From the NCBI RefSeq assembly GCF_003697845.1, contig NZ_RDQE01000011.1:1-64000 (forward strand): a DNA stretch of 64,000 bases. Direction: 5' to 3'. This document shows positions 31,927 to 43,154 of this stretch, piece after piece (within the stretch, counting starts at the first letter, position 1; each line of letters opens with the position of its first letter). Under the pieces are notes generated by a model. It did no database searches. It saw only the letters and a program-made list of their open reading frames with translations, and was not told the origin of the DNA. The stretch is from Halobellus captivus (GTDB taxonomy: Archaea > Halobacteriota > Halobacteria > Halobacteriales > Haloferacaceae). A program made the position numbers and the translations under genes.

Positions 31927-32635
31927 TTGTAATCACGGTCGCGTAAAGTTAGAGAATGAGGCGTTCGACTTCAGAGAGTCTATGACCGAAATCGAACGCC
32001 TCAGCGAACGTATCGCGTGGATCGACTTGTCGTTTGTGGAGCGAGATCGAACTCCGCGATGGGCGATTGAAATAGGGATCCGCTGTCACTTGGCCGTCAT
32101 GTCACTACGTGAGGTAAGTAAATTTCTCGATGAATACGGGATCGATCGGAGTCACGTCGCTATCCATAACTGGGTTCATAAAGCCGATCTACAGCCGATC
32201 TCGACCGTGTCTGCGGATCAACTCGCGGGTGACGAAAAGATGATCCGCCTCCACGGCCAGAAGTTCTGGCTGTACGGTGCGGTTGATCCGTTTACGAACG
32301 AGATCCTTCACGTGAGCCTCTATCCGACCGCAAATAAACAGACGACGCGATGGTTTCTCACCGAGCTACACCGGCGCTATCAGCTCGATAATGTGGAATT
32401 TCTCGTCGATGACAGACTATCTCGGATCTGTCCTCGCTGAAGACGGCTATCGATTTCAAATCATTCAACATGGAAATCGGAATGCCATCGAACGTGTTTT
32501 TTGGGAAATAGAACGACGAACATCATCGTTTGCAAATAGTTTCAGCAATGTCGCGCTAGAGACAGCTCAAAATTGACTTGAAGCCGTCGCAGTCTACCAC
32601 AATTCACGCCAAAGTTAACGCGACCGTAATCACTT
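31927..32635 (+). mobile_element. degraded IS6-family insertion sequence
   Basis: An element of about 709 bases, the usual size of short haloarchaeal IS6 members (ISH14-like, about 700 bases). Imperfect terminal inverted repeats are visible at 31927-31950 and 32611-32635: 18 of 24 positions match, with ACGGTCGCGT shared exactly. The transposase inside is broken by a frameshift and a nonsense codon. No 8-base target duplication is visible at the ends, which agrees with an old copy. It lies directly upstream of the 310-residue/PIN pair, between it and the AstE-like gene. Confidence 0.7.
31982..32618 (+). pseudogene. IS6-family DDE transposase, frameshifted with a nonsense codon
   Basis: The start MTEIERLSERIAWIDLSFVE, the SHVAIHNWVHKADLQP helix-turn-helix segment and the first part of the DDE domain (KFWLYGAVDP for the first Asp, NVEFLVDD for the second) are clear to about 32412. 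There two bases appear lost. The rest (DYLGSVLAEDGYRF, HGNRNAIERVFWEIERRTSSF) continues in another frame, giving the catalytic Glu. A TGA at 32574-32576 replaces the TGG of the family's NWLEA segment, and the last residues VYHNSRQS run on to a TAA at 32618. It has two inactivating mutations, so it is dead. Confidence 0.85.
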
Positions 32636-39138: not shown

Positions 39139-39245
39139 CCGTTCGTCCCTCATCAACTGTCCCTCGCCACCCGACCCACACCGCTCGTCCCTCATCAACC
39201 ATCCCTCATCGCTCGTCCCTCGCCACCCAACCCACACCGCTCACC
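39139..39245. repeat. imperfect direct repeats upstream of the LeuA/CimA gene
   Basis: Two imperfect units of about 42-56 bases, each with CGYTCGTCCCTCATCAAC, TCCCTCGCCACCC and CCCACACCGCTC segments; the second has an extra internal CGTCCCTC unit. They fill the gap between the promoter of the LeuA/CimA gene and the end of the Cas4-like gene. Function is unknown; they may have arisen by slippage. Confidence 0.5.
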
Positions 39246-39927
39246 CCAGAAGCGAGCGCAACGATCGACGGCCGGTCCCACACTCTTCCCGGTACTCGCA
39301 GGTCGTACACCGGTCGTCGTCGACGCGGGCCGGCGGGCCGGCGATCGCGCGGACCGCCCGGACCGTCCGTCGATAGGCCGCCTTCCGACGGGTCGTGATC
39401 CTGACCTCCCGGACGACGCCGACGGCGGGATACTCGAGGACCGCCCGCGGAACGTCGCGCTCCCGCTCCCACGCGAGCGCCTTGGCCGCCGCGACCGCCC
39501 GGACCGACTGCGGCTCCCAGACGCCGCGTTCGGGCGGCTCGCCGGGCGAGCAGATCACCGGAGTCGGCGGTCCGCCGTCGACGGCCGCCAGCAGCTTGTG
39601 GACGACCCCGTGACACTCGCGTCCCGAGAGGAACGCCCGCGTCTCGGTCGGGTCGACGAGCCGGTCGTACAGGTCGCGCTCGCGGAGCCGAGAGAGGTTC
39701 CGGCGGTAGGCGGCCGGCTCGCGGCGGAGCGGGAGCCGTCGGAGGACCGAATCCGGCGCGTCGATCAACTCCGGGTATCGGTCGGCCAGGTCGATCCGCT
39801 CGGTCGCCTCCGTCGGAAGGTCCCGATCGTCCTCGCGCCGGCGGTAGTAGAGTTGGCGGGGACAGTACGCCGCGGCCGCGAGGTCGCTGAAGGGGATCAC
39901 GGGGAGGATCGCCGCGGGTTCACACAT
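39241..39927 (-). CDS. stand-alone Cas4-like protein
   Basis: A 228-residue protein with the Cas4/RecB-like frame: the N-terminal FSDLAAAAYCPRQLYYRR gives the lone Cys (C22), and the C-terminal CTTCEYREECG gives three more (C207, C210, C216), the four ligands of a [4Fe-4S] cluster. In between, the PD-(D/E)XK nuclease core is not easily found: EYPAVGVVREVRITTRRK stands where GxxD and ExK would be expected. No cas genes or repeats are near. It may be a repair-related or degenerate nuclease. The 3' end overlaps the direct repeats at 39139-39245. Confidence 0.75.
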   Translation of the reverse strand: MCEPAAILPVIPFSDLAAAAYCPRQLYYRRREDDRDLPTEATERIDLADRYPELIDAPDSVLRRLPLRREPAAYRRNLSRLRERDLYDRLVDPTETRAFLSGRECHGVVHKLLAAVDGGPPTPVICSPGEPPERGVWEPQSVRAVAAAKALAWERERDVPRAVLEYPAVGVVREVRITTRRKAAYRRTVRAVRAIAGPPARVDDDRCTTCEYREECGTGRRSLRSLLG

Positions 39928-41014: not shown

Positions 41015-41044
41015 CGTAAACCGATATACTAAAATTGGTTTACG
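41015..41044. promoter_or_regulatory. BirA-type biotin operator CGTAAACC-N14-GGTTTACG
   Basis: A perfect 8-base inverted repeat with a 14-base spacer, ending 15 bases before the bioY ATG. The half-site GTAAACC/GGTTTAC and the spacing equal the BirA box known across bacteria and some archaea (TTGTAAACC-N14/15-GGTTTACAA). The A/T-rich spacer (GATATACTAAAATT) contains the TATA box, about 27 bases upstream of the ATG. A biotin-loaded HTH-BirA bound here would block TBP. The birA gene itself is not in the window. Confidence 0.85.
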
Positions 41045-41058
41045 AGAGACCGGCGAGC

Positions 41059-41640
41059 ATGTCCACCCGAACCGAGTCGGTCGACCTCGTCGGCGACGAG
41101 GCGGCGGTCAACCTCGCGCGCGCCGCGCTGTTCGCCGCGCTCGTGGGCGCGTTCGCGTACGTCACGTTCCCGAACCCGATCTCGCCCGTCTCCGTGACGC
41201 TCCAGGTGCTCGGCGTCTTCCTCGCCGGGATCTACCTCGGTCCCGTGTGGGGGCCGGCCGCGCTCGTTCTCTACCTGGTCGCGGGTGCGCTCGGCGCGCC
41301 GGTGTTCGAGGGCGGCTCCGCCGGCGTCGGCGTCCTCGTCGGCCAGTCCGCCGGCTACCTCTGGTCGTACCCGCTGGCCGCGGGCGTCGTCGGCGCGGTC
41401 GTCCACCGCGGTACCGCCCTCCGCGATCCCGCCGCCGCCGGGCTCGCGACCCTCGTCGGCGCGATGGTCCTCGGAACCGTCGTCGTCTACGGGCTCGGGA
41501 TCGCCGGCCTGATGCTCGTCCTCTCGCTCGGCCCCGTCGAGGCGGCCACCGTCGGCGCGCTCGCGTTCCTCCCCGCGGAGGCACTGAAGATCGCCGCCGC
41601 GGTCGGGATCGTCCGATCCGACGCGATCGCGGCCGCCTGA
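41059..41640 (+). CDS. bioY: biotin transporter S-component BioY
   Basis: Substrate-binding membrane subunit of the ECF biotin importer, 193 residues with about six membrane helices. Family marks are AYVTFPNPISPVSVTLQVLGVFLAG, LVLYLVAGALGAPVF and GQSAGYLWSYPLAAG. The ATG at 41059 was chosen by its distance to the TATA box within the BirA operator and by the normal length. It is the first gene of bioY-bioM-bioN. Biotin is needed by acyl-CoA carboxylases such as the one at 62800. Confidence 0.95.
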   Translation: MSTRTESVDLVGDEAAVNLARAALFAALVGAFAYVTFPNPISPVSVTLQVLGVFLAGIYLGPVWGPAALVLYLVAGALGAPVFEGGSAGVGVLVGQSAGYLWSYPLAAGVVGAVVHRGTALRDPAAAGLATLVGAMVLGTVVVYGLGIAGLMLVLSLGPVEAATVGALAFLPAEALKIAAAVGIVRSDAIAAA

Positions 41641-41643
41641 ACC

Positions 41644-42447
41644 GTGATCGTTCTCGAGGACGTCACGTGCCGGTACGGGGGAACCGGAGACGCCGGCAAC
41701 GGAGCGATCGGGGAGCGAGGGGACGCCACGATCGTCGCCGTCGACGACGTCACCCTCACCGTCCCGGATGGCGAGTTCCTCGTCGTCGCCGGCGCGAACG
41801 GCTCCGGGAAGACGACGCTCGTCCGCACGTTCAACGGGCTCGTGCGGCCGGACTCGGGAACCGTCTCGGTGAACGGGACGGCCGTCGGGGAGGACCTCGT
41901 CGCCGCCCGCGTCGCGATCGGGATGGTGTTTCAGGACCCGCGCGATCAGCTGGTTTCGGCCACGGTCGGCGGCGACGTCGCGTTCGGTCCGGAGAACCTC
42001 GGACTCTCTCACGGGGAGATCGACCGGCGGGTCGCCGAGGCGCTCGAGGCGGTGAACATGGTCGGCCGCGAGGACGACCGGATCGCGACGCTGTCGGGCG
42101 GCGAGCGCGAGCGCGTCGCGATCGCGGGGGCGCTCGCGATGGAGCCCGACCACCTCGTGTGTGACGAGCCGTTCACCGGGCTCGACGAGCCGGCCCGCGA
42201 GTCGGTGCTCGGTCATCTCCGCGAGCGCCACGCGGCGGGGACCGGCGTCGTCGTCGTCACCCACGACCTCCGTGACGTGATCGGGCTCGCGGACCGCGTC
42301 GTCGGCCTCGCCGACGGGCGGGTCGTCGTCGACGGGACGCCGGCGGAGGCCGTCCCGGCGCTGTCCGGACTCGGCGTGCGGGTGCCGAGGGGAGGAGAGC
42401 GATTCGGCGACGATCGCTTTCCCGACGACGAGGATCCCGACGCGTGA
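41644..42447 (+). CDS. bioM: ECF transporter ATPase BioM
   Basis: The energising ATPase for biotin uptake: 267 residues from a GTG start four bases after bioY. Walker A GANGSGKTT (50-58), Q-loop FQDPRDQLVSATV with the EcfA-type DPRDQ segment, signature LSGGE (150-154), Walker B LVCDEP (171-176) and the HDL H-loop are intact. An extra Gly/Asn-rich insertion (about 12-28) precedes the A-loop. The stop overlaps the bioN GTG start by four bases (GTGA). Confidence 0.93.
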   Translation: MIVLEDVTCRYGGTGDAGNGAIGERGDATIVAVDDVTLTVPDGEFLVVAGANGSGKTTLVRTFNGLVRPDSGTVSVNGTAVGEDLVAARVAIGMVFQDPRDQLVSATVGGDVAFGPENLGLSHGEIDRRVAEALEAVNMVGREDDRIATLSGGERERVAIAGALAMEPDHLVCDEPFTGLDEPARESVLGHLRERHAAGTGVVVVTHDLRDVIGLADRVVGLADGRVVVDGTPAEAVPALSGLGVRVPRGGERFGDDRFPDDEDPDA

Positions 42448-43154
42448 CACTCGGATACGTCCCGGGCGACTCGCTCGCCCATCGCCTCGACCCTCGATCG
42501 AAGCTGCTCGTCCAGATCGGGTTCGCCGCGGCCGCCTACGCCCACACGACCCCGCGGGGGCTTGCGGCGCTCACGCTTCTCGCCGCCGGCTGTCTGTGGG
42601 CCGCCGCCGGCGATCTCGATGACCTGTGGGCGTACCGGTTCGCGCTCCCGGTGCTCCTCCTCGCTCCCCTCGTCGCGGGCGCGACGCTCGGGGAACCCCG
42701 GTTCCGCGTCGACCGGGCCGGCGCGGCGGCGCTCGCGAGCTATCGGGTCCTGCTCCTGCTCGTCGTCGCCGCGGCCTACGTGCGGGCGACTCCGGTTCGC
42801 GACTCTCGAGCGGCGATCCAGCGCACGGTGCCGGGGAGAGCGGGCGCGTTTCTCGGGATCGGCGTCGGGCTCGTGTTCCGCTTTCTGCCGCTGCTCCGGC
42901 GCGACTTGCTTGCCGCTCGCGAGGCGATCCGCGCCCGCGGCGGCGGTCAGCTCCCCGTCCACGAGCGGATGCGGCTGATCGCGGTCGCCGGGACGAACCG
43001 GGCGTTCGGCCGGGCCGACCGGCTGGGCACCGCGCTCGCCGCGCGGTGTCTCGCGTGGAACCCGACGCTCCCGCGGTTGGCGTTCGGACCCGCGGACTAC
43101 CTCGCGCTCGCGTTCGGAGTCGGGCTGCTCGCGTCCGCGGCGGCGGCGGTCTGA
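42444..43154 (+). CDS. bioN: ECF transporter transmembrane subunit BioN (EcfT)
   Basis: A 236-residue coupling protein with an N-terminal DPRSKLLVQ motif, about five hydrophobic segments, and the cytoplasmic EcfT coupling helices containing ARG motifs (AIRARGG and AALAARC). It joins BioM to BioY. The GTG start overlaps the bioM stop. Expression follows the BirA operator upstream of bioY. Confidence 0.92.
   Translation: MTLGYVPGDSLAHRLDPRSKLLVQIGFAAAAYAHTTPRGLAALTLLAAGCLWAAAGDLDDLWAYRFALPVLLLAPLVAGATLGEPRFRVDRAGAAALASYRVLLLLVVAAAYVRATPVRDSRAAIQRTVPGRAGAFLGIGVGLVFRFLPLLRRDLLAAREAIRARGGGQLPVHERMRLIAVAGTNRAFGRADRLGTALAARCLAWNPTLPRLAFGPADYLALAFGVGLLASAAAAV

Follow-up and report, generated by a model that had tools for sequence, protein, structure and literature searches.

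The inverted repeat immediately upstream of bioY in the window (the whole 64,000-nt stretch of Halobellus captivus DNA analysed here) is very probably the operator of the bifunctional ligase/repressor BirA, and on the sequence evidence it is predicted to place the biotin-uptake operon bioYMN under biotin repression. That it is a conserved BirA-type site of a known kind is well supported by its arms, its position and its recurrence in related genomes. A conserved BirA signal in Archaea is already named, next to that of Eubacteria and the BirA regulon, in the title of Rodionov, Mironov and Gelfand (2002); what is new here is the promoter geometry, together with a control provided by the loss of the ligase's helix-turn-helix (HTH) domain in one genus. 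A search of the open-licence literature found no title or abstract that deals with the control of haloarchaeal genes by BirA or with a BirA operator in haloarchaea.

An exact inverted repeat precedes the biotin-uptake operon

An earlier note, made from the DNA letters alone, had read the genes downstream of the repeat as bioYMN, and Pfam bears this out in all three (Table 1). The bioY and bioM genes are separated by 3 nt, while bioM and bioN overlap by 4 nt (gap -4 nt), and with BioY encoded in one operon together with the A and T components the locus has the make-up of an ECF biotin transporter of the BioMNY type. The same three genes are known from Natrialba magadii, a haloarchaeon that is described as auxotrophic for biotin (PMC3403918); the covered parts of that paper describe no operator. 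Elsewhere in the window, an open reading frame on the minus strand (39241-39927) has a weak match to Cas4/DUF83 (C-terminal part, E 2.2e-5).

Table 1. Features of the bioYMN locus, in window coordinates
Feature	Position	Strand	Details
Predicted BirA operator (inverted repeat)	41015-41044	.	arms 41015-41022 and 41037-41044, spacer 14
Probable TATA element, CTAAA, at the spacer's conserved TTNAA position	41029-41033	+	centred 28 nt before the ATG; putative function
bioY, biotin-binding S component of ECF transporter	41059-41640	+	Pfam BioY 5.7e-33
bioM, EcfA-type ATPase	41644-42447	+	Pfam ABC ATPase 6e-30
bioN, EcfT-type transmembrane protein, CbiQ family	42444-43154	+	Pfam CbiQ 1.6e-10

The repeat reads CGTAAACC-GATATACTAAAATT-GGTTTACG, which is exactly the CGTAAACC-N14-GGTTTACG that had been claimed just before bioY, and no second exact copy exists in the genome. 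The 30-nt box ends 14 nt before the bioY ATG; the comparative scans used its 28-nt core (GTAAACC..GGTTTAC), and measured from this core the gap in the window is 15 nt. The pattern GTAAAC-N14..20-GTTTAC occurs once in the 3.59-Mb genome, at this very place, which also remains the only site with 0 mismatches when the third position is left free. Three places have 1 mismatch, and 50 places genome-wide lie within 2 mismatches, against 17 for the reversed pattern. A chance palindrome is a negligible prospect, with no point found in its support: when the window was shuffled 100 times with its dinucleotide content preserved, no shuffle contained the box pattern, and across the bioY upstreams of other genomes the arms are conserved while the spacer drifts.

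BirA operators have spacers of 14 or 15 nt, and 16 nt is also allowed; the box in the window has GTAAACC and GGTTTAC as its core arms and a spacer inside this range, and it stands ahead of biotin transport genes. The published BirA consensus is TTGTAAACC-N14/15-GGTTTACAA (PMC545781, citing a 2002 paper), and the core GTAAACC-N14-GGTTTAC agrees with it; the position before biotin genes and the HTH-bearing ligase are likewise features of the known BirA system. Here the outer TT..AA of the consensus is replaced by ac..ga. The earlier note had called the BirA box established in bacteria and some archaea, and had proposed a search for the same box before other biotin genes. In this genome no other biotin gene with the box was detected, with no BioB match at E 1e-40 or better and no second exact site. 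As a separate observation, 28 bases at window positions 32592-32619 (GTCTACCACAATTCACGCCAAAGTTAAC) recur at C8:34884 and C36:9626 of the same genome and perhaps belong to a mobile element.

The genome's one detected biotin ligase carries an N-terminal HTH

A TIGR00121 search of the genome detected one biotin ligase. It has the three domains of a Group II (bifunctional) biotin protein ligase, namely HTH_11 (PF08279) at residues 8-56 (1.3e-10), the ligase domain (PF03099, 1.9e-16) and the C-terminal domain (PF02237, 8.9e-14). The earlier note had named a BirA without an HTH as a finding that would speak against its reading, and here the HTH is present at the N terminus.

The best solved-structure matches of the full ligase are HTH-less ligases of 235 residues, and BirA chains can be aligned with it too, beginning at residue 11 (1bia) or 16 (3rir). 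Taken in isolation, the HTH matches solved BirA chains weakly (E 0.03-0.2), so it is the whole protein that supports the BirA family call. NiaR (0.002) is a better match to the isolated HTH than the BirA chains are, and so are some designed TIM barrels (0.0007); the NiaR match would suit an alternative in which the box is bound by another HTH regulator of biotin genes rather than by BirA. We consider this improbable, since the core is identical to that of the BirA consensus in print and since the box is missing in a genus (g17, below) whose ligase is without the HTH.

BirA occurs in both bacteria and archaea, and Halobacterium is described as having both BPL and BirA (PMC3199775, in the parts covered). 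Across the class, 279 of 292 genomes have a BirA match, and the 13 that have none all fall among the 15 without BioY. Two genomes (G108 and G131) have BirA and no BioY, and one of these, G131, has a box before bioB. Two others (G018 and G229) have a second, HTH-less ligase-like match beside a normal BirA (45% and 41% identity over residues 72-329 and 64-330, respectively).

The box is conserved before bioY in haloarchaea

We scanned 110 bioY upstreams, made up of 30 best matches and 80 chosen sequences (mostly from genomes without an exact box) out of the 277 genomes with BioY. A box with at most 3 mismatches and a spacer of N13-15 was present in 106 of them, as opposed to 1 of 110 for a control with reversed half-sites, and its spacer was N14 in 101 cases and N13 in 5. 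The four exceptions come from two genera: L057 and L078 from genus g39 (4 mismatches, HTH present), and L106 and L121 from genus g17 (6 mismatches). A further set of 80 named loci overlaps the 110 upstreams (L263 matches L034) and is thus not independent of them; 75 of these loci lie within 3 mismatches (control 0/80), the limit being exceeded at L288, L292, L309, L314 and L333.

The exact core with a spacer of N12-16 gave 86 matches in 82 of the 292 genomes, and the reversed pattern was found in 3 genomes. Among the 75 matches listed of these 86, all 71 N14 cores precede bioY (64) or bioB (7), as assigned by comparing the listed coordinates by hand, and none of the four N12 or N15 cores does so. 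These last four (N12 in G079, G092 and G279; N15 in G257) were considered as operators and are taken as chance occurrences, since none of them has a neighbouring match to BioY or BioB. The exact core is found in Halorubrum aquaticum, Haloferax denitrificans and Haloferax marinum, and since these Haloferax relatives have the same box, the prediction can be tested in tractable strains.

The column consensus of the 101 N14 boxes is tcGT[A/C]AACC-N14-[G/A]GTT[T/G]ACga. At the variable third position the two arms read A-T in 49 boxes, C-G in 22, C-T in 13, A-G in 10 and other combinations in 7; a symmetric change of this kind fits a dimeric protein reading a dyad, although the rows are related and the count is not one of independent events. 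The BirA-operator reading is supported both by the box, which stands before bioY in most of the sampled haloarchaea and before bioB in all upstreams sampled, and by its absence from the genus without the HTH.

Two loci deserve separate mention. In L168 (G020) the box (1556-1583) lies between divergently oriented bioY and carbon-nitrogen hydrolase (PF00795, 2.9e-36) genes, at distances of 14 and 15 nt to their ATGs, and a single operator may serve two promoters there. L332 (JACZYK010000240.1), titled as a Bacteroidetes MAG, has a bioY and an N13 box that both closely resemble those of Halalkalicoccus (L301), and is probably a mis-binned contig.

A TATA-like element lies inside the spacer

The TATA box that the earlier note had placed in the spacer is there in substance, as a TATA-like element conserved in place, but the slot is the CTAAA of Table 1 and not the letters TATA at 41025-41028. 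In the 101 N14 boxes, core positions 13-17 read T67 T91 N A91 A69 (percent), that is TTNAA, with its centre 28 nt before the ATG where the gap is 15 nt and 27 nt where it is 14 nt. TTWT is the published TATA motif of haloarchaea, and 72% of the protein-coding transcripts of H. volcanii are leaderless (PMC4983044, in the parts covered); on these grounds we read TTNAA as the likely TATA element of a leaderless promoter. TTNAA stands at a fixed place inside the bioY spacer, and for this reason BirA should block TBP and TFB.

The inverted repeat could in principle act instead as a leader RNA hairpin, of an attenuator or a riboswitch, as its arms could pair in RNA and the symmetric A-T and C-G variants of the third position would preserve the pairing. 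However, in most of the sampled genomes the end of the core is 14-15 nt upstream of the ATG, and the core encloses a TATA-like element whose centre is 27-28 nt upstream. Most of the repeat should therefore precede the transcript start, and we regard a hairpin as very unlikely. The geometry is not universal: in 81 of the 106 boxed upstreams the distance from the core to the chosen start is 14 or 15 nt, and in the other 25 it is 9-13, 16-18 or 25-75 nt, with one core overlapping the chosen start.

With biotinyl-AMP, BirA dimerises and places one HTH on each arm of its operator. For an operator straddling the bioYMN promoter we infer BirA binding, its dependence on biotinyl-AMP, occlusion of TBP/TFB and a leaderless start, as follows. 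When biotin is plentiful, the BirA-biotinyl-AMP dimer would put one HTH on each arm and, lying over the TATA element between them, would keep TBP and TFB off, and the probably leaderless bioYMN transcript would be silenced. When biotin is scarce, BirA would be busy biotinylating carboxylases and the promoter would open. A repressor and operator common to bacteria and archaea would here be set on an archaeal TATA promoter.

Loss of the HTH in one genus coincides with loss of the box

In all four genomes of genus g17 that were covered the BirA match begins only at residues 48-63, and in each of the four frames Pfam detects the ligase domain and the C-terminal domain but no HTH. The three g17 genomes with bioY are all without the box (best 5-6 mismatches), and upstream of bioY they keep TCTAA, GTTAA or TTCAA, with its centre 28 nt from the ATG (27 for TTAA). 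No BioY was found in the g17 genome G292, which is 74% complete. In the table of 110 genomes, a box within 3 mismatches is present in 106 of the 108 with the HTH and in neither of the two without it, a distribution that stems from one loss event only. HTH status was read here from match ranges, which in the 108 start at residue 6 or earlier, except in G183 (residue 15).

The HTH loss in g17 acts as a natural knock-out linking the BirA HTH to the operator, as one event in one genus. It provides a clean evolutionary test, in which the operator has disappeared along with the HTH of the ligase and the TATA-like element persists.

The box before bioB has a different geometry

BioB is present in 130 of the 292 genomes. 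From these we took 70 bioB upstreams (30 best and 40 chosen), and all 70 carry a box within 3 mismatches, with a spacer of N14 in 68 and N13 in 2 (control 0/70). All 70 have an in-frame GTG or ATG 9 nt upstream of the core end; the right arm includes this probable start codon and encodes M-V-Y-E. A TTAT precedes the core by 7-10 nt and stands about 28 nt upstream of the probable start codon, with a conserved CC..AA further upstream (68 sequences). With TTAT 5' of the core and GTG/ATG within it, the bioB operator covers the probable start site and the first codons, not the TATA element.

We also considered whether the right arm is conserved solely as protein code, and reject this on the second codon, which is GTT in 30 of 30 genes, although GTT is a rare codon: in the rest of these genes it makes up 44 of 929 Val codons. 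The second codon was read at a fixed offset from a conserved motif, without use of the box, and its GTT bias points to a constraint on the DNA. The two gene sets could form one BirA regulon with two geometries and a shared TATA-to-start distance, possibly with differing repression strengths for uptake and synthesis, a reading to which we give about even chances. For uptake (bioYMN), the box around the TATA element would block TBP and TFB; for synthesis (bioB), it would lie over the start site.

Outer bases and comparison with other BirA sites

Most haloarchaea differ from the published consensus in their outer bases, which are tc/ga rather than TT/AA, and TTGTNAACC-N14/15-GGTTNACAA occurs in none of 65 haloarchaeal genomes. 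Bacterial sites vary at the outer bases as well, as in acGTcAACC and GGTTgACgA (PMC545781, in the parts covered). The delta-proteobacterial sites in the same source resemble ours in the arms, the N14 spacer and the C/G variant (for example TTGTcAACC-N14-aGTTgACAA), but in the part of the table covered they precede the synthesis genes bioW, bioB and bioF, and they belong to bacterial promoters, with no TATA element.

Across the phylum, TTGTNAACC-N14/15-GGTTNACAA was found in 10 of 344 genomes, all 10 among the 279 non-haloarchaeal ones (L343-L352). By eye, all ten boxes precede a BioY-like open reading frame, which Pfam confirms in the four scanned. Unlike in haloarchaeal bioY, the distance from box to start ranges from overlap to 77 nt, and because the distances differ in this way, the TATA element straddled by the box may be a haloarchaeal arrangement. 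An AT-rich stretch is often seen by eye 5' of the box in these ten loci.
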